35,565 nucleotides of DNA, from assembly GCA_023481165.1 (NCBI GenBank), contig JAMCWO010000329.1:1-35565 (forward strand), in the 5' to 3' direction. Both the position numbers and the translations under genes were made by a program. Under the pieces are notes generated by a model. The model was not told where the DNA came from. It worked only from the letters and a program-made list of their open reading frames with translations, and did not search any database. Positions 1 through 34,485 of this stretch are shown here, in pieces (the first letter of the stretch is position 1; every line of letters starts with the position of its first letter). This DNA comes from Planctomycetota bacterium (GTDB taxonomy: Bacteria > Planctomycetota > Phycisphaerae > Sedimentisphaerales > Anaerobacaceae).

Positions 1-1283
1 CGCTGCGCCATCACGCCGACGACGGTCGAGGAGATCAGGTACGGCTCGATTCCCATGTCGGTCAGTCGGGTGACGGCCGAGGCGGCGTCGTTCGTGTGCA
101 GCGTGCTCAGGACCAAGTGGCCCGTCAGAGACGCCTGGATCGCGATCTCCGCCGTCTCGCGGTCGCGAATCTCGCCGATCATGATGATGTCAGGGTCCTG
201 CCGGAGGATGTGCCGCAGGCAGTTCGCAAAGGTCAGGCCGATCTTGGGACGGACCTGCATCTGCCCGATGCCCGGCAACTGGTACTCGACCGGGTCCTCC
301 ACGGTTAGGATGTTCCGCTCCTGGCAGTTCAACTCGTTGAGGGCGGCATAGAGGGTCGTCGTCTTGCCGCTGCCGGTCGGGCCGGTAATGAGGATGATGC
401 CATGAGACACCCCAATGAGGCGGCGGAACGTTCTCAGCAACTCCGGCCCAAATCCGATTTCCTCCAGCTTCAGCTCACCCCGACCTTTGTCGAGCAGTCG
501 CAGCACGACTCGTTCACCGCCGGCGGTGGGGATCACGGAGACGCGGATATCCACCGGATCGTCGCCGATGCTCACGCGGCTCTGGCCATCCTGGGGCAGA
601 CGATGCTCGGCGATGTTGAGGTTCGCCATGATCTTCAGACGCGAAAGGACCGGGGCCACCTGGATCTTGGGCAGGGTCAAGATGTTGCGCAGGACACCGT
701 CGACGCGAAAGCGGACGTTTACTTGCTCTTCATAGGGTTCGATGTGGATATCGCTGGCCCGGCTGTGGACCGCATGGAACAGGATTTTGTTGACCAGCTT
801 GATCGCCGGTGCCTTGTCGGCGATGTTGAGCAGGTCTTCCGCCCGCGTCTGGACGGTGCTGGAGACGTCGACGGTGCCGCTCTCCTGCGCTGCGGCGGCC
901 TGGGCGCCGTCGAGAGTGAAGCCGTTACCTTCTTCGGAGGAGCCGAGATAATAACAGCGGCTGATGGCTTGTTCGATCTCCGCCGCCGGACAGACGATCC
1001 GCCGGCACGGCCGGCCCAGAACGCTGACGATCGCGTCGTAGGCTTGCAGGTTCAGCGGATCGGCCAAAGCGACGGCCGGCTCGTTCTGGTTGAGCAGGAT
1101 GGGGATGGCCCGCTGCTTCTTGAGGAACTCCAGGGGCAGACGCCGCATCAGCTCCGGACTCAGTTGCTCGGGGCCGATCTTCTGGAGCTGCCGATCATCA
1201 GTTGGCTCGATCGGTTTCGGGCTCACGTCCTGCTCTCCGGCCGTTGGCTCAGCCAAAAGCTCCGTTGATCTGCGCCTGGCCAT
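1..1283 (-). CDS. gspE: Type II secretion ATPase GspE (partial, C-terminus off the left edge)
   Basis: Cytoplasmic hexameric ATPase that powers type II secretion or a related type IV pilus-like machine. About 427 codons are visible and the frame is still open at base 1. An N-terminal MshEN-like domain (about residues 30-150) precedes the ATPase core. The Walker A motif GPTGSGK lies near residues 301-307 (bases 363-383), the Walker B/Asp-box region IIMIGEIRD near residue 365, and the His-box HTND near residue 390. The C-terminal part, where many GspE proteins carry a Cys4 zinc motif, is outside the window. The ATG at 1283 shares one base with the TAA of gspD (TAATG), so translation is probably coupled to the secretin. 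PilB-type ATPases look similar; the adjoining gspC and gspD favour GspE. Confidence 0.95.
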
Positions 1284-3604
1284 TAGTGACTCGCCTCACG
1301 CGCCGCATCCATCTGCTGCTGCTTCTGGTCCGTCATCTCCTGCAGGTCCTCCTGCGTGGACATCACCCGTGGCGTGATGAATAACAGGAGGTTGGTCTTC
1401 TGCGTATGGTGGCTCTGGGACTGGAACAGGGCGCCTACCAGAGGGAGGTCCCCCAACAGGGGTACCTTCTTGACGGTTTTGACCGTGTCGTCCCGGATCA
1501 GGCCGCCGATCACGACCGTGGCGCCGCTGCTCATCACGACGTCGGTTTTGACGCTCCGCTTGGCGGTGGTGGGTGTGTCGGGCGACGGGCTCGTGACATC
1601 CTCAATCAGCTTGGTGAATTCGCTCTCTATTTTCAGCCGGATCATGCCGCCCTGGCTGACGTGGGGCGTGATGTCCAGGGTGATGCCCACGTCCTTGTAT
1701 TCGAAGCTCTTGATCACCGTGGGGGTGACCGGATCGACCGTCTCTGTGATCCGCGATTGGGTCACGAACGCCCGGTTCTCGCCAACGATGATCTTGGCCT
1801 TGCGATGGTTGGAGGCCAGGATATTGGGGGTCGAGAGGATATTCACGCCGGATTGCTTCTCCATCGCTTGGAGAATCGCCCCGATCTTGACGGTTCCGCC
1901 GACCGATTTCCAGGCCCCGATCGCAAGTCCTTCCGCTGTGCCGCTGAGGAAATTGACCCGCGGCCCGAGATTGGTCATCCCGAAGCCACGCACGCCATCC
2001 GAGACAGGATTGTCCATCGTAGCCCAGTCAACGCCCAGCTCGCGGAGCGACTCATCGCTGATTTCCAGGATCAGCATCTCGACCAGGACCTGCTCCCGCA
2101 CGATGTCGAGTTGCTCGATGATCTGCGAGATCAGCTCGAAATCGGACGGCGGGGCGACGATCACCAGGGCATTCGTGCTGGTGTCCGGGGTGATTTGGAT
2201 GCGCGGCGCCAGTTGTGCCGGGCCGCCCAGCTTCATGCTGGTCAGGGCATTGGCCAGCGAGCGCGACACTTCATTGGCGTCGCCGTTCTTAAGGTAGACG
2301 ACGTGGACGCTGTCCATACCGACGGGACGCTCGATGTCGAGCTGCTGTACCAGTTGCCCTACGGTGGCGGCATCCTGGTCGGTGGCAACGACAATGAGGG
2401 AGTTGGTCCTCTCATCCGGCAGGACTCTTGGTCCATTTCCTATGGTCGGCACGGCCTGAGGGCGGCCTGTCGGCGGAGTCATCATCTTGCTCTTCTCCAG
2501 GATCCGCAAGACCTGCTCGCTCATCGTCTGGGCGGAGGCGTGGGCCAGCGGAAACAGGAGCACCTTCTCCTGGGAACCTTCCACGTCGAGCTGCTGAATC
2601 ACCTGGGCGATATGGTGGATATTGGCCGACGTATCGGTAATTACGAGCGAGTTGGTACGTGGGTACGTCGCGAGCTGGGCTCCGGGCGACAGGATCGGGG
2701 TCACGATCTCGCTGATCTCCGCGGCATCGGCGTACTTCAGCGGGATGATCTGGCGCGCGATCGTGTCGGTCTCGGGGATCGCCGCCGGGTCGGCCCCGAC
2801 ACGCACCTGGGTATGGCTCCTGACAGCCTCGGCCTTGGGCACCACCTTGACGACATTGTCCATCTCGATCGTGGCGTAGCCCGCCACATCCAGGATCGAT
2901 TGCAGGAAGGGATAAATGTCGCCCAGACGAATGGAGGTCGGCGACATGACGGTGACCGTGCCGTTGACGCTCGGGTGCGGGATGAAGTTGATGCCGGTCA
3001 GTTCCCCGATGGTTTTGAGCACGGTCCGTATGTCGACATTGTCGAAGTTGACGGAGACCAGCTCATCCGGGTTCGCGAGATGCGGCGGGGTGTGCCGGGC
3101 GGGACTCTGGGCCGCCTCAGTTCGTGGAGGCAGGCCCGCCCGCGCCGTTGTGTCCGGCTGGGGCAACGTGGCCTTGGCCTTCTGAGCCGGTGCGGTTTGC
3201 TGCACGCTGGGCGGCTCGTGGACCGTGGCCGCGGCCGGAAGGGCGACCGGAGGGATAGGGCCGGTCTCAGCCGGCCGTGGTTTTACGGCATTATCTTCGG
3301 GCCGTGGCGCCGGCTTGCAGTCTGGAGCGGCCTCGGGGACCGGCGGCAGTGGCACAGGGGCCACCGGGTGCTGCTCCACCGTTACATGGTCATTTCCCGA
3401 TCCGTCGGATGAGTCCGGCGGCTGGGCCGCAAGCTGAGCCGGATGGCCCTGGCTGCTCGCGGTAGCCTGGGGATGGACTTCACAGCCCGCTCCGAGTACG
3501 ACGACCGCATAGAACATCAACGCAAGCGTAGCCGCGACGAGGAGGGCCTGGTACGGCTCGCGATGGTTTTGGGGCCCCATTGTCTGGTGCTGCTTTGTCT
3601 TCAA
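1283..3604 (-). CDS. gspD: Type II secretion outer-membrane secretin GspD
   Basis: Forms the outer-membrane channel of the type II secretion system. I place the start at a TTG (3604) because AGGGAGGG lies just upstream. An ATG at 3580 and a longer start at 3694 are alternatives; the latter would overlap gspC. From the TTG the protein has 773 residues. A hydrophobic stretch ends in GAGC near residue 41 and could be a lipoprotein signal, though the lipobox is imperfect. A long Pro/Ala/Gln-rich linker follows (about 42-180). The N0 domain comes next (from about 182, with [14 protein letters not shown]), then N1-N3 repeats, and the secretin core from about residue 515, including [18 protein letters not shown] and the C-terminal LLLFITPRV. 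It lies 55 bp after gspC and overlaps gspE by one base. Confidence 0.95.
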
Positions 3605-3659
3605 GGTGCCCTCCCTTATGTCGGGTTCCCAAACTCGAGGTACCGCGTTTGGGGTCTTG

Positions 3660-4547
3660 TTACAAATCGAAGGATAACTCTTTGCTCTTGCCATCGCGCA
3701 GGATCCGGATGTCTACCCTCGGCTGCGTTCTGGCTTTCTGCAGGACCTGAAAGGCCTTCTGCTTGCTGGTCAATTGCTGTCCGTTGACGGTCTGAACAAT
3801 GTCGCCGTTCTTGAAACCGAACGCTTCGGCCAGCGGGATTCTGTCCAAGCCGGTAATCTTCAAACCCTCGGTTCGGTCGTTCTTTACGTAAGGCTCGATC
3901 GTCGCCTTGCGAAAGATCTCCGACATGGATCCCGTTCGGGAGGATTCGGAGGATGGGGCCGTGGCGACAGGCAACGGCTGACTGCGGTTGTCCACGTTCG
4001 GCACTGCGGCTTCTGTCTTCTGTTGTCCTTTGTTCACGGTCGTGCCGGAGCACTGCTTCAGTACCAAGATTCGGCCCTGGCAGCGCAGAACGACCTCTCC
4101 TCGTTGGATCGCCTCAACCGTGGCCGAGGCGACGATATCTCCGATCCGGTAGAAGTCGCTGGTGCTGCTCTTGGTGCTCTGGATGATGGCACGGGAGGCG
4201 GCCGGACCGCCGGCGATGGTCCCCACCAGCCTCAGGCCCAAGTCATCCGCCGAAGGCACGGACGGCACGGCCGGCGCGCGATTGGCATCGGGCTGCCGGG
4301 CGGCTGCGGTATCCGCGTCGGAGAACAGGTTTCGCTGAACAATCGCCTCGTAGTCCGACGGAGAGTGAGTGTCCGTGGGTGCGGCCTGTGTCTCGGCTAC
4401 GCGCAGCTCGCCACTGGCGGTGTCCGGATCGAACATGGCGTTCAGACGCATGCGGTTGACCACCACCCCGACACCTACGTACAACAGCACGGCCACAAGA
4501 GCGGCCTTGGCTATCCAGAGGATCGTGATGAAGCGTTTCTCATCCAT
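3660..4547 (-). CDS. gspC: Type II secretion inner-membrane protein GspC
   Basis: Links the inner-membrane platform to the secretin and helps select substrates. The 295-residue protein has one N-terminal membrane segment (about residues 8-30). A periplasmic homology region follows (about 65-160; it contains IVQRNLFSDAD and LRLVGTIAGG). A low-complexity linker and a C-terminal PDZ domain (about 205-295; GLKITGLDRIPLAEAFGFKNGD and IRILRDGKS) complete it. This is the standard PDZ-type GspC layout at roughly the usual length. It is the first gene of the visible gspC-gspD-gspE order. The upstream Shine-Dalgarno is weak (AGGCAGGC). The GspC call rests on the architecture and on the neighbouring secretin. 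Confidence 0.88.
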   Translation of the reverse strand: MDEKRFITILWIAKAALVAVLLYVGVGVVVNRMRLNAMFDPDTASGELRVAETQAAPTDTHSPSDYEAIVQRNLFSDADTAAARQPDANRAPAVPSVPSADDLGLRLVGTIAGGPAASRAIIQSTKSSTSDFYRIGDIVASATVEAIQRGEVVLRCQGRILVLKQCSGTTVNKGQQKTEAAVPNVDNRSQPLPVATAPSSESSRTGSMSEIFRKATIEPYVKNDRTEGLKITGLDRIPLAEAFGFKNGDIVQTVNGQQLTSKQKAFQVLQKARTQPRVDIRILRDGKSKELSFDL

Positions 4548-4730: not shown

Positions 4731-5387
4731 TCACGGCCGGGCCATTATCAGGACGATGAGCGCGTAGGAGACGTTGGCTATCCCGTGAAACAAAATGGGA
4801 GCCAGCAGTGAGCCGGTTCGGAGGAACAGCCACGCCAGGATCAGGCCCGGCACAAATGTCAGAGCCGCCGTTATCTGGCCCTGAACTACGACGTGAGCCA
4901 GGGCAAAACAGCCGGCCGACACGAAGATGGCGATAACGGCCGGCGCGATCCGAGGTAATCGGGTAGCTTGACGCAGCCATCGGGCTGTGTTGCCCTGGAC
5001 ATATCCGCGAAAGAAGACCTCTTCTGCGACGGCCACGTAGAAGAACTGGTAGAACAGCCAGGCAGGCCAGCCTTGGCGTTCTGGGACTATCGGCCGCAGC
5101 GGCACGGGCAAATTCAGCCGTGTCAGTAGCCACAGACCGAAAAAGACCACCGGGAGAACACAGAGGCAGACAGCGCCGAGGGTGGCCGCAACGAGGCTGC
5201 CATGGTCGAGGTCGAGACCGAGGCGTGGGAATTCCCTTTTGCCGATCCAGGCAGGGACCAGGGCCGCCGTCACCAGCACGCCGGGAATGGCAATCCACTG
5301 GAGGCTCGGCGCACCGCTGACGTGGAGGAATCGAATGAGGGCCAGCACACCGCCCGTCACGAGCACCGTCTCAGTAATCACCCCCAT
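4731..5387 (-). CDS. CPBP-family intramembrane glutamic protease
   Basis: Polytopic membrane protein of the CAAX protease / bacteriocin-processing (CPBP, Abi) family. I start at the ATG at 5387, preceded by GGAAAG; a TTG at 5399 would add four residues. The 218-residue protein has about six to seven hydrophobic segments. It carries the family signatures EEVFFRG (Glu122, Glu123, Arg127), FALAH (His165) and a third His in FHGIANV (His201), so the catalytic set is complete. It precedes gspC on the same strand with a gap of about 180 bp, which contains no gene that I can support. Its substrate cannot be read from the sequence; roles range from prenyl-protein processing to bacteriocin immunity and anti-sigma degradation. 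Confidence 0.88.
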   Translation of the reverse strand: MGVITETVLVTGGVLALIRFLHVSGAPSLQWIAIPGVLVTAALVPAWIGKREFPRLGLDLDHGSLVAATLGAVCLCVLPVVFFGLWLLTRLNLPVPLRPIVPERQGWPAWLFYQFFYVAVAEEVFFRGYVQGNTARWLRQATRLPRIAPAVIAIFVSAGCFALAHVVVQGQITAALTFVPGLILAWLFLRTGSLLAPILFHGIANVSYALIVLIMARP

Positions 5388-5534
5388 AATTCTTTCCAAA
5401 GTGGGGCCGATGCCGCGACTTGCCCCTGCTAAATCCTAGGAACAAATCGCTCTCTGTCCAAATAGACCAGTGTCATCACGATAGGGAGGCAAAGTCGCAT
5501 AGACTCCGCCGGTGCCCGGGACCCGCACAGCGGC

Positions 5535-5858
5535 CTACCGGGCGTGAATCTCGCCGGTGTATTGCACGACGACCGGATAGCCGTCAACCTTCGGGGGAAT
5601 CTCCCGTCGGACTTGTTCCGTGTTGGCAGCCGTCAAAATCAGGATGCACGGCCTGTCCTCGCACTGCCCGATCGCCGTGCCGATGACGCCGGGAATCGCC
5701 ATCCACGCCTCCGTATGTTCCTGCTGCACCTGCTCAATCGTCTTGGCGGCCATCACGGTCCCCTTCTGCGACGAGAACGTCTCCGCACGCCGGCAGCTCG
5801 CGCCGCTCAGGATCGCCAGCACGATCCACGTCAGGATGAATTCCCTTGTGCTCACCAA
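5535..5858 (-). CDS. Small lipoprotein: stand-alone copy of the N-terminal domain of the neighbouring Nal1-like peptidases
   Basis: A 107-residue protein with a TTG (or adjacent GTG) start and AGGA upstream. The signal sequence ends in LSGASC, a plausible lipoprotein cleavage site. The mature part (about residues 40-105) shows the same pattern as the N-terminal domains of the next two genes: a helix with EQVQQEHTEAWM, then IPGVIGTAIG, a strand CILILTA, and a final IPPKVDGYPVVVQYTGEI. It has no peptidase domain. It follows the peptidase gene at 5896-6936 by 37 bp on the same strand, so the two probably form an operon. Function unknown. Possibilities are an inhibitor, a chaperone-like partner, or a surface adhesion module. 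The homology is seen by eye; the roles are guesses. Confidence 0.72.
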   Translation of the reverse strand: MVSTREFILTWIVLAILSGASCRRAETFSSQKGTVMAAKTIEQVQQEHTEAWMAIPGVIGTAIGQCEDRPCILILTAANTEQVRREIPPKVDGYPVVVQYTGEIHAR

Positions 5859-5895
5859 TCCGTTTCCTGCGTCGCCGCTCGGCGGTCCCCGGCGT

Positions 5896-6936
5896 CTATT
5901 CGCCGTCGATGTTCACGCCCAAAGCGCTCAGCACGGCATCGATGTTGTTGGCGATCGCGAATTTGCCGCTGCTGTCCCCGGCAAAGAGCAGTCCCACCGG
6001 GCTCTTGCCGGGATCGGTCACCAACAGAGAGCCGGAATCGCCGGCCTTGATGAACGGCGCGCGGGACTGCACAATGATCTGCCCTGTGAAGCGAGCCGTA
6101 CCGGAAGAGTAGCCGATGTTGATGATGGCATTGATCGCCGTGACAGTCCCCCTGGTCAGGGAGGTGGTTCGGCCGTACTTCTGGACCGCCATGCCGACCG
6201 TGGCGGTGGTCGTACTGGAAGTCGGCATTCCATAGCCGTCCGCAGGCGTGCTGTTGCCGAGCAAGTCCGTCGTGCTGGCGGCGATGGCGGCATCGACGGT
6301 GTTATTCGCACTGGTCGAGAACTCGATGGGAACGAACGCCGTCAGCGTGCCGATGTCGTTCTGAGGGTCATATTTGCCTCCGGTGTCGTACAGGCCCGGC
6401 TGGACCACCTTGTCGCCGATCGATGCGGTATTCTCCAAGGCGTACACGTGGTTGTTGCTCAGGGCGTACACGCTGCCGCCATGGCTTACGCGGCACCCGA
6501 TCGTTCCGGCCGAATAGGAGGTGGCGTTTCCCGTCGAGACACCGATGGGTACGGGGCGCTCGAACCAGTCGGTCGGGTCGATCTTCTGCGACGCTTTGCC
6601 CTTGCTCGGGAGTGCTTTCGACGACCCCAATGCTTCGATCTTGCCAGTGACGAGGGCCCGGACGGGCACGCCGTCCAACTCCCCGGGGATTTGCGCCACC
6701 CCGGTTTGCTCCAGCAAAACCAGGACCGCCGGGCGGTCATCCTCCGTTAGCCCGGCCGCCGTGCCAACCACGCCTTTTTGGGCCATCAGTTTGGCCGTGT
6801 GGCGCTCCTGGACTTCCTTGACGCGTTCAAAGGCGTTGTCGCTGTTTCCCTGGGCGGACGCCATTCCCGAGAAGACCAGCAGACAAGCAGTAACCACTGT
6901 GATGACAAGCATTTGGAACCATTTTCGCCTTGACAT
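5896..6936 (-). CDS. Secreted Nal1-like (chymotrypsin-fold) serine peptidase
   Basis: Exported 346-residue protein. The ATG at 6936 is preceded by AAGAAGGGG at good spacing; a TTG at 6960 is less likely. The signal peptide ends near MASAQG (residue 30). Residues 35-103 form the small shared domain (ERVKEVQERHTAKLMAQKG, GVVGTAAG, DGVPVRALVTGKI). Residues 140-346 form a trypsin-like peptidase domain with apparent triad His163 (SNNHVYA), Asp215 (VDAAIA) and Ser301 (GDSGSL). The surrounding patterns KYGRTT and PVGLLFAG match what I remember of bacterial relatives of plant NARROW LEAF 1 peptidases. It may be a type II secretion substrate of the nearby gsp genes, which is inference. The 7155-8480 gene is its closest visible relative. 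Confidence 0.82.
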   Translation of the reverse strand: MSRRKWFQMLVITVVTACLLVFSGMASAQGNSDNAFERVKEVQERHTAKLMAQKGVVGTAAGLTEDDRPAVLVLLEQTGVAQIPGELDGVPVRALVTGKIEALGSSKALPSKGKASQKIDPTDWFERPVPIGVSTGNATSYSAGTIGCRVSHGGSVYALSNNHVYALENTASIGDKVVQPGLYDTGGKYDPQNDIGTLTAFVPIEFSTSANNTVDAAIAASTTDLLGNSTPADGYGMPTSSTTTATVGMAVQKYGRTTSLTRGTVTAINAIINIGYSSGTARFTGQIIVQSRAPFIKAGDSGSLLVTDPGKSPVGLLFAGDSSGKFAIANNIDAVLSALGVNIDGE

Positions 6937-7154
6937 ATTTGGCCCCTTCTTAGAGTTCAATCAGGACAATCTATGAACAACTAAACGAGGATGTGGCTTC
7001 TATCGTTCCCATCGGTGAACCGCATCGACGATGCTGCTCCAGCGCGCCATCTATGTTAATGCATACCCCAGCCATCCAAAGAATAGCACAACTCTCCTGC
7101 TTTGGCAATACGCAGGCTTCTTCGGGCGGTTCGGTCCGGTGGTTCCGTGCGCCG

Positions 7155-8480
7155 CTATTGCCCATCAATGGTTACGCCGAAGCGGTTCAGCACGAGATCG
7201 ATCGGGTTCGCGATCGTATCGGTATCCCCGCCGGCAAACAACAAGCCCACCGGGTGATTTCCGTCCTCCGTTACGATCAGGGAGCCGGAATCGCCGCCCG
7301 CGCTGAAAGTGCCGGGCGAGACGATGATCTGGCCGACAAATCTGGCGGTACCGCTGTCGTAGGTGACGTCGACCGTCGCATTGACCGCCTGGACCTTGCC
7401 ATGGGTCAGTCCTGTGGTTCGGCCGTACTTCTTGACGGCCAGGCCGACCAAGGCGGCGGCAGTGGTCCGGCTGGGCGTGAAACTGCCGTCGGGCGCGCTG
7501 TTGCCCAGCGTTGCGGGTGTGCACTGGGCAATGGCGGCGTCGATCTGATTGGCGGCGTGCTTCGAGAACAGGAGGTCCTGGAAATCCGACAGAGTGCCGA
7601 TCCTGTCGCGCGGGTTCAGGCCGCCGTCCGACGGCCCCGGCTGCAACACGTTGTCGCCGAGGGACGCCCGGTTCTCATCGGCATACACGTGATTGTTGCT
7701 CAGGGCGTAGTACAGGAGAACACCGCCCACGTCCTTGCAGACGCGGCACGCGATCGTGCCGGCGGTGATCCTGGGGTGTCCCGTGGAGACGCCGAGCGGG
7801 GCCGGCCGCCGTCCGATGGAAGCCGCCTGCGTCATGGTCAAGGTCTTGGCCGAGACTTCGTTCGAGCGATGGGATTGGTTGATGGATGTGTCGACCGCCG
7901 TCACGATGTAGTAGAAGGTCGTGCCCGCCGGCAGGCCGCTGTCAGAGTAGACGGGCGCGGTGCTGGCGGGGACGATACCGATCTTCGAGTACGGCCCTAT
8001 GGGCCTGACCGAACGGTACACGTTGTAGTGATCCAGGTCCGTTTCGCTGTTCGCATTCCATCTCAGATTGATCTGGCGGCTGCCGACGATCTCGGCGACC
8101 AGACCTGTCGGTCCGGCCGGGGCCGTGTGGTCGTACCCGGATGCCGTCCGTAGCGCCCGTGGCCGCGCGTGCGCCAGAGCATAGATCTTGCCCGTGACGA
8201 TCCGCCGAACCGGCACGCCCTCGAGATCCGCCGGTACATCCTGGGCACTGGGGCCTTCCAGCAGGACCAGGACGGCGTATTCTCCGCGTTCGTTGAGCCC
8301 GACGGCCGTGCCCACGATCCCGGCCTGCGTCATCATCTTCTGCGTGTGTCGCTCCTGAACGGCGCGGACCCGCTCCAACGCCTGGTTTCGTTGCCCCCGG
8401 GCCGGCGCGGCTTGTGCCAGACCCAGCAGGCAGACGACCATGGTCGCTGCCAGCACCCGGAGACATCCTGTCTTCAACAT
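7155..8480 (-). CDS. Secreted Nal1-like serine peptidase with inserted fibronectin type III domain
   Basis: A 441-residue paralogue of the next gene on the strand. The ATG at 8480 has AAAGGG upstream and the signal peptide ends near residue 25-30. The layout is: shared small domain (about 35-102, with VQERHTQKMM and GIVGTAVG), an FN3 domain (about 121-213; LRWNANSETDLDHYNVYRS and YYIVTAVD), then the peptidase domain (about 225-441). Triad candidates are His264 (SNNHVYA), Asp314 (IDAAIA) and Ser398 (GGDSGSL). The FN3 domain sits between the two parts that are adjacent in the sister gene, so it was either inserted here or lost there. FN3 modules in secreted bacterial enzymes often serve as spacers or bind carbohydrate. 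The gap to the sister gene is about 218 bp, so a separate promoter is possible. Confidence 0.84.
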   Translation of the reverse strand: MLKTGCLRVLAATMVVCLLGLAQAAPARGQRNQALERVRAVQERHTQKMMTQAGIVGTAVGLNERGEYAVLVLLEGPSAQDVPADLEGVPVRRIVTGKIYALAHARPRALRTASGYDHTAPAGPTGLVAEIVGSRQINLRWNANSETDLDHYNVYRSVRPIGPYSKIGIVPASTAPVYSDSGLPAGTTFYYIVTAVDTSINQSHRSNEVSAKTLTMTQAASIGRRPAPLGVSTGHPRITAGTIACRVCKDVGGVLLYYALSNNHVYADENRASLGDNVLQPGPSDGGLNPRDRIGTLSDFQDLLFSKHAANQIDAAIAQCTPATLGNSAPDGSFTPSRTTAAALVGLAVKKYGRTTGLTHGKVQAVNATVDVTYDSGTARFVGQIIVSPGTFSAGGDSGSLIVTEDGNHPVGLLFAGGDTDTIANPIDLVLNRFGVTIDGQ

Positions 8481-9394: not shown

Positions 9395-10168
9395 TCAGCC
9401 AAACGAGTCTTTTCGGCTCCGCAATTCGGCGAAGACCTCCTCGGGCCGGACCTCGGGCAGGCCCAGGGCGGCCCGGATCTGCGGATGATCGGCTTGCAGG
9501 AAGATGTTCGCGGCCTTCTCCTGCCCGATCGTGGATGGGACCGTCAGCCGGCCGTACTCGATCGTTTTCTGGATCTCCGCGAGACGTTCCCGCAAGCGTC
9601 GGTGGCTCGGCGCGACGGTCACGGCGAATTCGTAGTTCTCCAACGCGTAGTCATGCCCGCAATAGACCAGGGTCTCATGCGGCAGGGCGGCCAACCGCTG
9701 CAGGGACTGCCACAGGGTGAGGGCGTCGCCTTCGAGCAGCCGGCCGCAGCCGCCCACGAAAAGAGTGTCGCCGGTATATACCACTCCATGAGCGCCGGGC
9801 CGCTCGGGCACGTGGTAGCAGACCGAATTCTGCGTGTGTCCCGGCGTAGCGATGACCTGAATCGTGACTTCGCCGATGTCCAGGACGTCGCCGTCGGCCA
9901 CCGTGCGGTTAGGCGCTGGGATGAGAGTGGAACCGGCCCCGACCAATTCGCAGCGGGCCTTTTGTTGGAGATCCGCCGCGCCGCCCACATGGTCCCAATG
10001 ATGGTGCGTCACCAGAATCGCCTTCAGCGCGAGGTGGTGCGCCTGGAGCGCCTCCAGCACGGCAGGAGCATGGCCCGGGTCCACGACGAACGCCTGATCC
10101 GGGCCACAACGGTGCAGGTAGATGAAATTGGTGGTGCCGGGGCCTTTGATCACAATCACATCAGTCAT
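9395..10168 (-). CDS. gloB: Hydroxyacylglutathione hydrolase-like metallo-beta-lactamase (glyoxalase II)
   Basis: 257 residues, close to the usual glyoxalase II length. The binuclear metal motif THHHWDH is at residues 54-60 (His55, His57, Asp59, His60). Further ligands lie in TPGHTQNS, YTGDTLFVGG and YCGHDY. The C-terminal helical part (ALENYEFAVTVAPSHRRL onward) is the region that holds the glutathione-binding residues in true GloB, which favours glyoxalase II over a generic MBL hydrolase. It would hydrolyse S-lactoylglutathione or another thioester in methylglyoxal detoxification. The ATG overlaps the stop of the upstream metalloprotease gene (ATGA), so translation is coupled. If this lineage lacks glutathione, another thiol ester may be the substrate. 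Confidence 0.86.
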   Translation of the reverse strand: MTDVIVIKGPGTTNFIYLHRCGPDQAFVVDPGHAPAVLEALQAHHLALKAILVTHHHWDHVGGAADLQQKARCELVGAGSTLIPAPNRTVADGDVLDIGEVTIQVIATPGHTQNSVCYHVPERPGAHGVVYTGDTLFVGGCGRLLEGDALTLWQSLQRLAALPHETLVYCGHDYALENYEFAVTVAPSHRRLRERLAEIQKTIEYGRLTVPSTIGQEKAANIFLQADHPQIRAALGLPEVRPEEVFAELRSRKDSFG

Positions 10169-11184
10169 GACTTGGCGTCCTCCTCCTTGGCCGCGACCAA
10201 CTTCCGGGCTTCCTCCCGACCGACGATCCCCTCCAGTCTCCGGCGCGTCCAGGCAGCCTCATCCTCGAAGCCCACCTTCCCGTAGAACCGATACAGGCGC
10301 GCATACCGCTGCGGCACATCGAAGCCGATACTATGATGCAGCTTGCGCAGGTCCACCGGACACTCATGCAGCGGCCGGGCATCGCTCTCGTCCAGGTGAT
10401 TCGAGCCGTTGAAGACGCAGCGAAAGCAGATGCAATGCGCCAGGCCGAACATATGGCCGGTCTCGTGGACCAGCACCTTGGCGCTGCGCCGCAGGAGAGT
10501 CTGCAGGTAGTCGTCGCCGCGCGGCGCGCCGTAGAAGGCCGGATCATAGCGTGCGAAGCTGTAGACGCCGACACGCTCGCGCAGACTGGCCTGCCCGAAG
10601 ACGAAGTTCCACGAGGGCTCGGGATAGAGATCCTCCATGGTAATGCCGAGCAGGCAAAAGGCATCCTCGGTAATCCGCTTTTTCAGAGCCGCCAGGATAT
10701 CCGTCGTCAGGAGTTGGCGATTGCCTGTGGCCGGATTGCGGCGGGTCGTGCTGTTCTCTTGGTTCAGACTCAGACTGGGCAGCACGCGCACCTCCAGCGC
10801 GAAATAGGCGGCCGCGTACTCGCGCAGGGATTCGAGCGGCGGCGCTGCGCCCGCGCGGAATTCTCCCAACGGCTGTAGATAGAGGATATTCCTCTTTCTG
10901 TCCGGGCGGTTCGGACCCGAACGCACGAACTGCTCGAAGCTCTGGCCTGGCTCCGGATGAACCGCCAGCCAATCGCTCGATCCAGGTGCCGGTAGCGGCT
11001 CAAAATCACTCGCCGGAGCGAAGGCCCGCTGCAAGATCGGCGGCAATCCCGCCGTGCTCCCGATCGCTTCGAGCCTCTGTTCTTTGTTCGGTATCTGGAA
11101 GTTCATAGCACCCATTACCATCGGCAGTAGAACCGCCATGCCGATCCGCCCCCTTCTCAGTCCATATTTTCGCAATGCACTCAT
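10165..11184 (-). CDS. Archaemetzincin-like zinc metalloprotease (peptidase M54 family), apparently exported
   Basis: 339 residues. The active-site motif HETGHMFGLAH (near residue 236) supplies three His ligands and the general base Glu. It continues as HCICFRC, the typical C-x4-C of archaemetzincins, and a downstream ECPVDLRKL. The usual final CxxC is altered: the last Cys position is Asp (CPVD), so the second structural zinc site is probably incomplete. The archaemetzincin Met after the second Cys is Phe (CVF). An N-terminal hydrophobic stretch (about residues 14-28, GMAVLLPMVMGAMNF) may be a signal peptide or anchor, whereas archaeal family members are cytoplasmic. It lies 21 bp after the glycoside hydrolase gene and overlaps the GloB start by ATGA, giving a three-gene string. 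Confidence 0.82.
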   Translation of the reverse strand: MSALRKYGLRRGRIGMAVLLPMVMGAMNFQIPNKEQRLEAIGSTAGLPPILQRAFAPASDFEPLPAPGSSDWLAVHPEPGQSFEQFVRSGPNRPDRKRNILYLQPLGEFRAGAAPPLESLREYAAAYFALEVRVLPSLSLNQENSTTRRNPATGNRQLLTTDILAALKKRITEDAFCLLGITMEDLYPEPSWNFVFGQASLRERVGVYSFARYDPAFYGAPRGDDYLQTLLRRSAKVLVHETGHMFGLAHCICFRCVFNGSNHLDESDARPLHECPVDLRKLHHSIGFDVPQRYARLYRFYGKVGFEDEAAWTRRRLEGIVGREEARKLVAAKEEDAKS

Positions 11185-11205: not shown

Positions 11206-13356
11206 CTATTGGGCGAACGAGGTCGGGACGATCTTGCAGGCAATATCCCGAGTGAAGGGCGGGACCGCCAGTTGGAGACGGCCCCCCTCGGACGCCACCG
11301 TCTGTTTGCTGATCGCTTCGCCGTCCTGCGTGTCCGACCAGAGAACGACATAGCTGTGCGGCTCCAAGCCTTCGACGGTGATCCGGGCGGTGTCGATCGG
11401 CTCCGGCGGACGTTTCTGGACGACGAGATTCCACCAGACCGCCTGGCGATTGGTCAGCCACAGGTACGCGCGGTCGTTGGCCTGCTGTCCCACAATGCGC
11501 AGACGCGGCTCGGAAGTGGTCGCGGTGGTCGGCTGTAGACCCGCCGGCGAAAACCCGGCCAGGAAGGTCGTCAGCGGCTTGTAGTGCCGATAGGCATCCT
11601 GCCGGTCCAGTTGATCCCACCACCAGAACATCGCCGTGCCCGAGGTGCCCGCCAATGCCGACGCCCACAGACAATTGTGGAAGTGAATACCTTCGGGGTC
11701 CTGCTTCATGTACTCGCTCAGGCCCCACTTCGCGTCCGCCAGGCCGAACTCGCCGATGAGGGCCGGCTTGCCCGGCGCGTTGTCCCGCAGGAAGCGCGTT
11801 TGGCGAATGATGGACTCGACCTCATCCTTGAAGTCATCGTCACCCGGCCGCATGTAGTGGTGCTCCTGGGCGATGTCGAGCTGCGGATGGCGGCAGTCTC
11901 GTGCGGAAGGGGCCCAGGTGCTCGTGGTCCGCAGGTGGTTGTAGAGGTCCATCTTCGCGAGGTAGTTGCCGACCTCGGCGTAGAAGCGGTCCGTGGGCTT
12001 GCCGGGGTCCATCTCATTCCAGTATTCCCACGCCGCTACGCTCGTGGAATAGCCCCAGCGCGCCACCGCGTACCGCATGAATTTCTTGGCGTCCGTGACG
12101 GCCAGCCGGTACTCGGGACTATCGACCTTGGATAGCGCGTTCATATACAGGTCCCGCGTGATTGCGCAGAGCATTAAGTAAATCCCGTTTTGCTCGGCCG
12201 CTTCGATGATCTGATCCAGCATGAAGCAGTCGAGTGGATTATAGTAGCCCCGGCTCGGCCTGTTGACATCCGCTTCCCACAGCAGTTCCGCACCGCCCGC
12301 CGCTTCTTTCAAGGAGAGAGCATCGAGCCAAATGGTGCCCGGTCCCACGAGGCTGAACGCCACGCGGCCCAGCCAACGCTCGTTGCCGCTCGTCCCAAAC
12401 TCCTGGCGGAACGTCTGCCAATCGGGACTGCCACCGGACGAGGCGGACACTTCCCAACTACTGTTGCCAACCTGTACGCGCAGGGCCTTGCAGCCCTCGG
12501 CCCGGAACCTGCCGGCGAAGACGTAACGCGTGCCGGGTCGCAGGCCGATGGGGTGGGAAGGGGAGGCCGTGAGGGATGCCCCCTTGTCGCCTTTGAGCCG
12601 GATGCACTTGCGTCCATTGGAATCGCTCGCAGCGTCCGGCACGGGCACCACAGGCGATTCCCGTGTCCACGAGCGGGTCCACGCACTTTTCTGGGCCTCG
12701 ATCGCCAAGGCCCAGTCCTGGCAGCAGGTCCAGAGGCGCACGAAGTTGGCCCCGTTGGCCGCCAGCTTGCCGAACACCTGCTCGGCCTTGACCGGCGTAA
12801 CGTACTGGGTTTCGCCGACGAACGCCACGTTCTGGCCGATGACAAAGAACGGCTCCCCCTCGGTGAATTCGAGGAACCGCGGGTCCTTCGTGCCCATTCG
12901 CACGAAACCTTTGCGCGACGATGCAACGCAGTCGAATTTCAGGGGCGCCGACGTGACTTCCCCTTGCCGATCCCGCAACGAGGCCCGGGCAACATACGCC
13001 CCAACTTCCATCGGCGCGAACCGCGCCTTCCAGGACGTCGTGCCCTGCGGATAGTACCACGCCGCGGTCCGGCCGCCCTGCGGCACATCCTGCCGCTCGT
13101 AGTTCTGTCCATAGAACGCCGGCAGCACCAGCGACCGGCCGCCCGGGCCGGCGATCAGCACATTCACCTCGACCTCGCAAGGATCGAACGGATTGCGGTA
13201 CTCCCGCCCGACCTCGATAGCCAACTCCAGCTTTTCGTACTTACCGACTTCCTTCTGCCGCGTGCTCAGCGTGATCCCCTGCGCCGCCCCGGCGATGCCC
13301 ACGCCATAGATCAGACACGCCGGCACGACGCAACCAAGAAGCTTTGACTTCAGCAT
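11206..13356 (-). CDS. Secreted DUF5060 / clan GH-A glycoside hydrolase
   Basis: 716 residues. The ATG at 13356 has GGAGG eight bases upstream and is followed by a signal peptide ending near AGAAQG. Residues about 30-120 form a DUF5060 beta-sandwich. A TIM barrel begins with FFVIGQNVAFVGE and NGANFVRLW. It is interrupted at about 220-365 by a carbohydrate-binding-like jelly-roll (LRPGTRYVFAGRFRAEG through GTIWLDALSLKE). The barrel resumes with IYLMLCAITRD, the probable acid/base Glu in EYWNEMDPG (about residue 447) and the nucleophile Glu in LIGEFGLAD (about residue 535). A C-terminal beta domain (about 600-716) includes HSYVVLWSDTQDG. Family members act on mannans, glucans or agar-type polymers; the substrate cannot be assigned. 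It is a good candidate client of the nearby type II secretion system. Confidence 0.86.
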   Translation of the reverse strand: MLKSKLLGCVVPACLIYGVGIAGAAQGITLSTRQKEVGKYEKLELAIEVGREYRNPFDPCEVEVNVLIAGPGGRSLVLPAFYGQNYERQDVPQGGRTAAWYYPQGTTSWKARFAPMEVGAYVARASLRDRQGEVTSAPLKFDCVASSRKGFVRMGTKDPRFLEFTEGEPFFVIGQNVAFVGETQYVTPVKAEQVFGKLAANGANFVRLWTCCQDWALAIEAQKSAWTRSWTRESPVVPVPDAASDSNGRKCIRLKGDKGASLTASPSHPIGLRPGTRYVFAGRFRAEGCKALRVQVGNSSWEVSASSGGSPDWQTFRQEFGTSGNERWLGRVAFSLVGPGTIWLDALSLKEAAGGAELLWEADVNRPSRGYYNPLDCFMLDQIIEAAEQNGIYLMLCAITRDLYMNALSKVDSPEYRLAVTDAKKFMRYAVARWGYSTSVAAWEYWNEMDPGKPTDRFYAEVGNYLAKMDLYNHLRTTSTWAPSARDCRHPQLDIAQEHHYMRPGDDDFKDEVESIIRQTRFLRDNAPGKPALIGEFGLADAKWGLSEYMKQDPEGIHFHNCLWASALAGTSGTAMFWWWDQLDRQDAYRHYKPLTTFLAGFSPAGLQPTTATTSEPRLRIVGQQANDRAYLWLTNRQAVWWNLVVQKRPPEPIDTARITVEGLEPHSYVVLWSDTQDGEAISKQTVASEGGRLQLAVPPFTRDIACKIVPTSFAQ

Positions 13357-13435
13357 CGGCGAATCCTCCAGCAGGATACTCGTCTGTCACCTACGGCGGA
13401 TTGTAACCTTCAGTACGTCTCCTGGGAACCACCGC

Positions 13436-13735
13436 AAATTGGGTTCGTTTTGCATATCTCGCCTTCCGTGGCCCTGAGGAGGCAGGCCAAATTGGGTTCG
13501 TTTTGCACATTTGCCCTCATCCCACGCCCCTCTGGCCCCGTCCCGGCGGGCGAAATTGGGTTCGTTTTGCACAATGGGCTCCCCGAAATTGGGTTCGTTT
13601 CGCGCATTTTGCCCTTCGTCGCCCTGAGGTGGCAGGCTGAATTGGCTTCGTTTTGCACGATAAGTATCGCCGGTGCCGGCAGTGTTGCGAACCCTTGCGT
13701 ACTGCCATCCGGCCGGAAATTGGCTTTGTTTCGCA
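13436..13735. repeat. Cluster of six 19-bp interspersed repeats (QNEPN/KTNPI type)
   Basis: Consensus AAATTGGGTTCGTTTTGCA on the plus strand. Copies are at 13436-13454, 13489-13507, 13553-13571, 13586-13604, 13639-13657 and 13717-13735; the last three differ by one to four bases. Start-to-start distances are 53, 64, 33, 53 and 78, so the array is irregular. The two 53-bp intervals share a longer unit containing CCCTGAGG(A/T)GGCAGGC. On the minus strand the repeat reads QNEPN, KTNPI or KRTQF depending on frame. I recall such peptides from spurious planctomycete ORFs. No gene or transposase is attached. Confidence 0.9.
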
Positions 13736-13768
13736 CGATGGGTCCACGGCCACCCCTTACTTGCAATA

Positions 13769-13794
13769 TCAAACTTCGCACTTCAGACTTCTCC
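13769..13794. repeat. ACTTC-rich short repeat
   Basis: Three ACTTC units at about 7-8 base spacing (AAACTTCGCACTTCAGACTTC-like). This resembles a dispersed low-complexity heptad repeat that I recall in intergenic regions of this kind of genome. It abuts the end of the 19-bp repeat cluster. Confidence 0.5.
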
Positions 13795-32633: not shown

Positions 32634-32940
32634 AACATCGTCCCTCTTCTCTGCGCGGGTCTGCCAAATCCGACGCGCAGCCGTACTGCCAATTCTACCT
32701 GTGCGTCGGGCATTCCCGTCCTTCCAGTGGACCGGCGCCCTCGGAGCGACCGTACTGTGTCCTTAACGGCCCATACTAAGTCGTCCTGTCGGCGGTGTCA
32801 ATCATTCAAGGTATTTACGCGTCAATTTTCTCCATGTCATCCGGAAGATTGATCGATTTCCCGATATGGCGGCGCCGGGCGATGTGATATGCCAGCATCT
32901 GTCGGCTGATGCAGGAGAATCTCACCCTATGAGGAGAGTC
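32634..32940. promoter_or_regulatory. Divergent intergenic region between RR2 and the HtrA protease
   Basis: About 300 bases between two divergent starts. It must hold the promoters for both, but I see no clear -35/-10 pair and no strong palindrome. The part from 32866 could be read as an N-terminal extension of the protease. The ribosome sites argue that translation starts near 32929-32944 instead. Confidence 0.4.
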
Positions 32941-34485
32941 ATGATGCGAGGCGACAAGGTCAGGTCGAGCCGGATAGGATTCTATTGTGCCCTCCTGGGC
33001 GTCTGGGGCACGCTCTTGTTCGCTTCCGTGCAGCCCAGCGACGGAGGGCCACAGAGCCCCGCCCGGGATTCTCCGCGTGCCGCCGCCCCTCAGGAGAGCA
33101 TCGCCCTTCTCAAACGCATGGGCAGCGCGTTCGCCTCCGTGATGGAGCGAGTCTCTCCGGGCGTGGTGGGAATCCAGTCGGAAAGGAGAATCCTGCGGGC
33201 GACGCCGGAAGAGCCCGCCGACGGGCCCCTCGACCCCTTCAGCGAGGACTTCTTCGACTATTTCTTTCGCCGGCGCGCCCCCCAGGAGGACTCCGCGCGA
33301 CGGGAGTATACCCGGAAAGCGCAAGGCTCCGGCTTCCTTATTTCCGCGGATGGCTTCGTTCTGACCAACAATCACGTCGTCGCAGACGCCGATAAGATCG
33401 TGGTCGAGTTGGTGGACGGCCGCACGATGGACGCGCAGGTCGTGGGCACCGATCCGGAATCCGATGTGGCGGTCGTCCGGATCCGGGCCGACGGCCTGAC
33501 GCCGGTGGCATTGGGCAATTCCGATGCCTTGGAGGTCGGCGAGTGGGTGCTGGCCGTCGGGAATCCGCTGGGTCTGAGCCATACGGTGACGGCGGGCATC
33601 GTCAGCGCCAAACACCGCAGCGGCTTCAATGTCACCACGTACGAGAATTTCATCCAGACCGATGCGGCGGTCAACATGGGCAACTCCGGCGGGCCGCTCG
33701 TCAATCTCAACGGCGAAGCCGTCGGCATGAACACGTTCATCCTCGGACCGGCCGGCGGGAATATCGGGATCGGGTTTGCCATTCCGATCAACATCGCCCG
33801 GGAGGTTGCCGACCAACTCATCAAGACCGGTGCCGTGGAGCGGGGCTACCTGGGCGTCATTCCGCAGGACCTGACGGCGGAGTTGGCCGAGGCGTTCGGA
33901 CTCAAGGGGACCAAAGGGGCAGTTCTGAGCCAGATCACGCCGGACTCGCCGGCCGGCCGGGCCGGCCTGGTGCATGGGGACATCGTGCCGGAGTTCGATG
34001 GGGTGGCGATTGCCTCCGCCACGCAATTTCGCAACCTCGTGGCCAGCCGCAAGCCGGGAGTCACTGTCCCGATGGTGGTCTGGCGGGACGGCCAGCGCCG
34101 GACGGTGGATGTCACGCTGGAGAAGCGCCCGAGCGCCGAGGAACTCCGCGGCGAGCGCCGGGAACCGCCCAAACGCCCTCCCGAAGAGCCGCCCCGACGG
34201 CTTGGTCTGAGCGTGCAGGATCTGACGCCGGAGGCCGCGGAACGCGCGAAGATCAAGGAGCGGACGGGCGTGCTCATTGCCAAGGTCTCGCCCGGCTCCG
34301 AAGCGGCCCGGAAGGGACTGCGTGAAGGATACATCATCAAGGAAGTCAACCGGCGCCAAATCAATAGCGAGCAGCAGTTCAAAGAGGCGGTTTCCACGGC
34401 GCTGCGCGAGGGGAACCGTCTCCTGCTGCTGATCACCGATGGTCGGGTCAGTCTGTATGTCGTGCTGAACCCGGCACAGGAATAA
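32941..34485 (+). CDS. HtrA/DegP-type serine protease with two PDZ domains
   Basis: 514 residues from the ATG at 32941. GAGGAG lies just upstream; ATGs at 32929 and 32944 are alternatives. An N-terminal hydrophobic stretch (about 12-30) is a signal peptide or anchor. A flexible region (30-120) precedes the protease domain with His145 (TNNHVV), Asp175 (ESDVAVVRI) and Ser249 (GNSGGPL), a complete triad. PDZ1 follows (from about 300; GYLGVIPQDLT, GAVLSQITPDSPAGRAGL). After a Pro/Arg/Glu-rich hinge comes PDZ2 (about 420-510; GVLIAKVSPGSEAARKGL). It degrades or refolds damaged envelope proteins. It is divergent from RR2, a possible regulator. Confidence 0.95.
   Translation: MMRGDKVRSSRIGFYCALLGVWGTLLFASVQPSDGGPQSPARDSPRAAAPQESIALLKRMGSAFASVMERVSPGVVGIQSERRILRATPEEPADGPLDPFSEDFFDYFFRRRAPQEDSARREYTRKAQGSGFLISADGFVLTNNHVVADADKIVVELVDGRTMDAQVVGTDPESDVAVVRIRADGLTPVALGNSDALEVGEWVLAVGNPLGLSHTVTAGIVSAKHRSGFNVTTYENFIQTDAAVNMGNSGGPLVNLNGEAVGMNTFILGPAGGNIGIGFAIPINIAREVADQLIKTGAVERGYLGVIPQDLTAELAEAFGLKGTKGAVLSQITPDSPAGRAGLVHGDIVPEFDGVAIASATQFRNLVASRKPGVTVPMVVWRDGQRRTVDVTLEKRPSAEELRGERREPPKRPPEEPPRRLGLSVQDLTPEAAERAKIKERTGVLIAKVSPGSEAARKGLREGYIIKEVNRRQINSEQQFKEAVSTALREGNRLLLLITDGRVSLYVVLNPAQE

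Follow-up and report, generated by a model that had tools for sequence, protein, structure and literature searches.

The stretch of DNA analysed here (the window; 35,565 nucleotides, contig JAMCWO010000329.1 of a Planctomycetota bacterium) carries on its minus strand three consecutive genes whose products have in common a domain of about 65 residues. In the first gene (5535..5858, minus strand) the domain stands alone: translated from TTG 5858, the gene yields a protein of 107 amino acids that consists of a lipoprotein-like signal, a linker and the domain (5538..5738; profile E-value = 9e-30), the latter including a class-specific cysteine (Cys) within the sequence RPCILIL. The second gene, designated P0002 (5896..6960; 354 amino acids as an open reading frame, probable start ATG 6936), encodes a signal peptide, an N-terminal copy of the domain (N-domain, residues 46–110, 6631..6825, found by profile match) and an S1 serine peptidase domain of the rice NARROW LEAF 1 (NAL1) type (residues 135–351, 5908..6558). 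The third, P0003 (7155..8480, 441 amino acids), contains a signal peptide, an N-domain (8178..8372, profile match), an FN3 domain (7851..8111) and a peptidase domain of the same type (7167..7808, profile match). The FN3 domain has a weak Pfam match (0.0037, under the cut-off) and is backed by numerous FN3 copies from related genomes that are 45–50% identical to it. A preliminary description of the locus had proposed this series of domain alone, domain plus peptidase, and domain plus FN3 plus peptidase, and apart from the weakness of FN3 in Pfam the series was reproduced in full. No additional family member was found in the source genome beyond the three-gene cluster.

The common origin of the three domains is supported by several comparisons. 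The stand-alone protein shows 41% identity to the N-domain of P0002 over 80 amino acids (E-value = 4e-13) and 32% to that of P0003 (E-value = 2e-08), and BLAST aligned P0002 and P0003 with 49% identity across the N-terminal 107 amino acids and 56% across the peptidase. The window domains score E-values of 1e-23 to 9e-30 against profiles built from many relatives, and the profiles of stand-alone and fused domains match each other with an hhalign probability of 99.7. The motif DGVPVxxxVTGxI, first thought to be common to all three proteins, does not hold for the stand-alone protein, which reads DGYPVVVQYTGEI. This difference is class-specific: stand-alone domains have Gly-Tyr-Pro-Val where fused domains read Gly-Val-Pro-Val. 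Neither Pfam nor NCBIfam, both of which were searched, holds a model for this domain or for the stand-alone family. No window domain matches NAL1_N (PF25608) above the curated cut-off; a more distant bacterial relative (L086) reaches 24.8 bits for this model (cut-off 27), and hhalign ties the L086 variant to the window domain family with a probability of 96–97. No match to Inhibitor I9 was found for the domain. Models of anti-phage defence systems gave no match except a single weak one to DpdC in one member, and the weak matches that the stand-alone profile gave to ribosomal protein S19, LAMTOR5 and DUF1543 (the last two in one member each) were judged to be due to chance.

P0002 and P0003 are NAL1-type S1 serine peptidases. 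The Nal1_C model (PF25819) is matched by P0003 with 28.7 bits (cut-off 26.1) and by P0002 with 25.6 bits, just below the cut-off, and 72 of 74 relatives match it at E-value ≤ 0.01. The catalytic residues His171, Asp223 and Ser309 (P0002 numbering), whose presence in both window peptidases had been pointed out before, are invariant in all 74 relatives. In the predicted structure of P0002 (predicted local distance difference test, pLDDT, 93.0; predicted template modelling score, pTM, 0.86), residues 35–354 align with residues 86–446 of rice NAL1 across both domains (Z = 27.3, 296 residues, 3.6 Å). NAL1 thus has the same two-domain architecture, with His, Asp and Ser in place as in P0002; the bacterial enzymes differ from it in being exported, in carrying inserts such as FN3 and in having a separate paralogue of the domain alongside. 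The predicted peptidase fold is also much like that of alpha-lytic protease and the streptogrisins (Z about 20), whose mature N-terminus aligns at residue 135–137 of P0002, and the linker preceding this point (residues 111–134, between N-domain and peptidase) is predicted with low confidence. In alpha-lytic protease, the pro region and a C-terminal hairpin of the enzyme together make up one sheet (PMC2829044). The P0002 model contains a long hairpin (strands 267–283 and 288–298) which, judged from its secondary structure, may be the counterpart. Plasmid and phage collections yielded just distant relatives of the peptidases, hypothetical where annotated.

An AlphaFold2 model of the stand-alone domain (pLDDT 91.5) has the order helix-strand-strand-helix-strand. 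Its best fold neighbour is residues 88–173 of NAL1 (Z = 6.6, 65 aligned residues, 2.8 Å). The pro region of alpha-lytic protease (2pro, 4pro and 3pro; Z = 5.7, 5.5 and 5.2, respectively) is within the top ten entries. The KH domain of uS3 (Z = 5.0–5.4) and the C-terminal domain of MamB (5.2), both unrelated folds, reach similar values; the resemblance to the pro region carries weight mainly because this region comes from the same group of peptidases.

The placement of stand-alone genes was analyzed from both sides. From the enzyme side, one genome per species was scanned with an alignment of related enzymes; 577 relatives were detected and the best 80 were kept. In 66 of these 80 best loci, a stand-alone copy follows the peptidase gene on the same strand, usually no more than 300 bp away and in many cases with an overlap. 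Since the contig ends just past the enzyme in six of the 14 unpaired loci, 66 of 74 testable loci are paired. The pairs are distributed over about 12 phyla: Planctomycetota, Gemmatimonadota, Desulfobacterota and other "Deltaproteobacteria", Schekmanbacteria, Nitrospirota, Nitrospinota, Verrucomicrobiota, Zixibacteria, KSB1, Fibrobacteres, Chloroflexota and Proteobacteria, with the qualification that many of the paired genomes are metagenome bins, so that individual taxon labels are uncertain. Two named isolates, Photobacterium obscurum and Oceanimonas marisflavi, also have the pair. In 23 loci of Gemmatimonadota the domain begins just 11–35 nt past the stop codon of the peptidase gene.

From the other side, whole planctomycete genomes were surveyed with the stand-alone profile. 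The survey of 347 genomes from the class gave 18 stand-alone genes, 15 of which adjoin the gene of a NAL1-type peptidase, in some cases one with a diverged N-terminal part, and that of 392 genomes from the phylum gave 21 testable ones, 15 of which do so. Together, 29 of 38 distinct stand-alone genes adjoin a peptidase gene, nearly all of them directly downstream and on the same strand. By a rough estimate that assumes a handful of these enzymes per 5 Mb genome, chance would produce this adjacency about once in a thousand per copy. By both counts the placement of the stand-alone form is far from random, and the suggestion that these genes form a dedicated, exported and functionally linked set is supported. 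The exceptions include stand-alone genes located upstream of the peptidase gene (G248 and G106) or divergent from it (G084), and copies in other positions (G058, two in G020, the second copy in G039, G373, G578, G619, a truncated copy in G720, and the second copy in G248).

Another reading is that the partner inhibits a range of secreted peptidases in addition to the NAL1-type enzyme. A subtilase gene directly precedes the stand-alone gene in G393 (L078), a stand-alone gene is located 1.3 kb past a subtilase gene in G248 (L096), and the truncated copy in G720 (L210) follows a matrixin gene. L231 (G118:C115, 2543–4087), a secreted protein in which the domain is repeated four times in tandem and no peptidase is present, would also fit. 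However, there are just three cases of such neighbors, one of them truncated, and the large majority of stand-alone genes adjoin a NAL1-type peptidase gene, so that we consider a general inhibitor improbable.

Phylogenetic analysis showed that the stand-alone domain is an old lineage. A single change separates the stand-alone from the fused class in a tree built from 60 and 75 domains, respectively (two changes after exclusion of the columns with the Cys and the insert), and in a larger FastTree set 82 stand-alone domains fall on one side together with 2–3 fused domains. A Cys in the motif PC[IL]KV is present in 93% of stand-alone copies (codon 5645–5647 in the window), whereas the fused class has Val or Ala at this position and Cys is not among its four commonest residues. 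The peptidases offer no invariant Cys that could pair with it, Cys156 being present in 26 of 74. All six pairwise comparisons of stand-alone genes gave a nonsynonymous rate (dN) below the synonymous rate (dS), some dS values being saturated, which indicates purifying selection. In G399 the partner appears degenerate and the peptidase gene has a stop, as if the two were decaying together. Separate clades, pairing and the class-specific Cys mark an old two-gene cassette, and the genes prove to be tied together far more strongly, and for longer, than first proposed.

These data also bear on the proposal that the cluster arose by local duplication, in its extreme form that the stand-alone gene is a by-product without a selected role, namely a truncated copy of the adjoining peptidase gene. 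Homologous genes do lie side by side in the window. The separate ancient clade, the signs of purifying selection, a Cys of its own conserved in 93% of copies and the pairing in about 12 phyla make such an origin hardly credible. Local duplication is not supported for the peptidases either: P0002 and P0003 are 56–58% identical to each other, and each has a closer relative elsewhere (67–78%), P0002 being 67–68% identical to genes in other genomes and P0003 78% identical to its counterpart in G393. Being closer to genes elsewhere than to each other, the two are old paralogues.

Export signals had been assigned to all three window proteins. By sequence, P0002 and P0003 have Sec-type signals as stated; the signal of the stand-alone protein is better described as lipoprotein-like, since it ends in LSGASC, a non-canonical lipobox in the window copy that is canonical in relatives. 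A signal-like hydrophobic stretch was found in 44 of 84 stand-alone open reading frames, 23 with a lipobox. The others, mainly in Gemmatimonadota, begin at or near the peptidase stop codon, which leaves no space for a signal.

The signal-bearing stand-alone genes may have a second start. An in-frame start codon occurs 2–9 codons before the domain in 40 of the 44 (ATG in 33), most often at a distance of exactly five codons, whereas only 19 of 87 fused copies, which also have signal and linker, contain a comparable start codon (ATG in 4). A Shine-Dalgarno-like motif precedes the internal start in 31 signal-bearing stand-alone genes versus 2 fused copies. In the window, the candidate start (5751..5767, minus strand) consists of AGAAGGGG at 5767–5760 and ATG at 5753–5751, from which a 72-amino-acid form without signal could be translated, with the class-specific Cys as Cys36. 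Selection on synonymous codons at the Shine-Dalgarno-like site was not significant (31 observed vs. 27.7 expected; reached by 83 of 1000 simulations). The dual-start idea therefore draws on position and amino-acid pattern, not on codon choice, and a second, cytosolic product of the same gene is hypothetical.

One explanation for a lipoprotein partner is that it acts purely as a steric chaperone, i.e., a folding factor for the exported peptidase without inhibition, like Lif for lipases that use the type II secretion system (T2SS). Lif is a different protein family with a different client. It is a separate, membrane-based partner which has been placed among the steric chaperones in one group with the propeptide of alpha-lytic protease, and its client uses the T2SS (PMC3352829). 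This analogy, extended to the pro region of alpha-lytic protease itself (PMC3352829, PMC2829044), and the occurrence of the lipoprotein-like signal across many phyla speak for such a function. On the other hand, the peptidases already have a domain of their own in cis, and the signal-less partners of Gemmatimonadota could not work in the periplasm, the site of folding; a pure chaperone thus seems unlikely.

The order of the domains is flexible. L162 and L208 have peptidases with no detectable N-domain and a separate domain gene downstream, in L074, L087 and L097 the domain is C-terminal to the peptidase, and L231 has it in tandem. These arrangements, including L162 and L208, are consistent with a domain that acts through docking, irrespective of its position in the chain. 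A small alpha/beta module with such varied placement could also be a structural subunit, which would oligomerise with the fused domains or recruit substrates and would not control activity; NAL1 was solved as a multi-chain assembly, and P0002 reproduces its two-domain arrangement. However, a single partner gene per operon, the class-specific residues and the lipoprotein anchoring suggest a distinct role, and the pro-region-like fold suggests contact with the peptidase. A purely structural role is therefore rather doubtful, though we give it some weight.

Taking these observations together, we favor, with a probability of about 0.58, a conserved protease/partner cassette in which the partner is a pro-domain-like inhibitor and/or a folding helper in trans. 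The enzyme is an exported S1 serine peptidase of the NAL1 type whose N-terminal domain is probably of the NAL1-N or alpha-lytic protease pro-region kind, and the partner is a separately encoded paralogue of this domain. The partner would most likely dock on the peptidase in trans at the place where the covalent domain docks, and would thereby hold the peptidase inactive, or aid its folding, where cutting would harm. A lipoprotein partner would act in the periplasm at the membrane, and a partner made without signal in the cytosol. That stand-alone proteins stop within a few residues of the domain end fits a trans-acting pro region. The pro region of alpha-lytic protease is made in cis and cleaved off, whereas here a second copy has its own gene and cleavage at the linker is putative.

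Spi resembles the pro-domain of SpeB and is in this respect a parallel to the present partner. In the pairs SpeB/Spi, staphopain/staphostatin and Bacteroides Btp/Bti, a small inhibitor gene lies beside the protease gene and is co-transcribed with it, and protease-coupled inhibitors occur in cytosolic and lipoprotein form (PMC3462683). The stand-alone gene is likewise small, adjacent to and co-oriented with a protease gene, and conserved in this position. The known systems differ in that their enzymes are cysteine proteases and their inhibitors have unrelated folds; some of these inhibitors have an established activity, whereas inhibition is what we infer here. Stand-alone copies of peptidase pro-domains that act as inhibitors are also represented by the Inhibitor I9/subtilisin pro-domain-like family, which concerns a different peptidase clan and a different domain. 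The protease-partner pairing carries no name in the databases searched, and no usable literature was found on relatives of NAL1 in bacteria, on the structure of NAL1 or on S1 pro-domains that stand alone.

Several points weigh against the proposed cassette function. At the sequence level, profiles do not connect the domain with the alpha-lytic protease pro region: the domain has no Pfam pro-region match, and no PDB pro-region chain was recovered in a sequence search. The fold similarity in the models is modest; unrelated folds also attain the Z 5–7 range, so that the match by itself is no proof of homology. The solved structures of NAL1 show the N-domain still attached, which means that the domain is not necessarily a pro-domain that can be removed. 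A fused enzyme without partner was found in 8 of 74 testable loci and in one planctomycete family, and 9 of 38 surveyed partner copies are remote from any NAL1-type peptidase gene. Finally, in Gemmatimonadota the partner lacks a signal and the enzyme has a hydrophobic N-terminus; because of this mismatch no single site of action fits all pairs.

A bolder version would make these proteins a widespread, unnamed group of trans-acting pro-domain inhibitors, in which one gene gives both a lipoprotein and, from the conserved internal start, a cytosolic guard, and the Cys serves as a redox or binding switch. We regard this as speculative and, as a whole, doubtful.

With regard to the surrounding genes, GspD and GspC of the T2SS are encoded on the minus strand at 1283–4547. 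The idea that this system serves the cluster is not supported as a general link, because gspC and gspD adjoin the cluster only in two close relatives of the same genus (L078 and L084). The T2SS genes lie outside the cassette, and export by T2SS is possible in the source genus. Directly downstream of the stand-alone gene, a CPBP-family intramembrane glutamic protease (4731–5399, minus strand) is kept in three same-genus relatives (L078, L079/L165 and L084) and is near the myxosortase core models, below their cut-offs. The subtilase of G393 (L078, 3780–6142) has an I9-like pro-domain and a signal peptide closely similar to that of P0002, and its gene lies between those of the NAL1-type peptidases and the stand-alone gene. 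Further along the minus strand, an archaemetzincin-like metallopeptidase (M54) was found in this bacterium (10165–11184); the neighbor set of GloB, M54 and a 716-amino-acid protein (11206–13356) is conserved in G399 (L084). A repetitive frame of the CKTNPI/QNEPNLACLLRATEG type (13410–13781, minus strand) is probably a repeat element and not a gene. Another trypsin-family (PF00089) protein is encoded on the plus strand (32866–34485, match at 33313–33798), one of 12 such matches in the genome.

Most known two-gene cassettes for protease control concern a small number of cysteine proteases from pathogens and commensals. The pairs described here would extend this arrangement to serine peptidases in about a dozen mostly uncultured phyla, with a partner for which the libraries searched hold no family model, and their presence in named isolates makes testing practical. 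A separate domain beside its enzyme offers a direct route to the role of the N-domain that these enzymes have in common with the plant growth regulator NAL1. If the partners are indeed a family of trans-acting inhibitors that occurs in two forms, the attached N-domain of plant NAL1 may likewise be a regulatory pro-domain.

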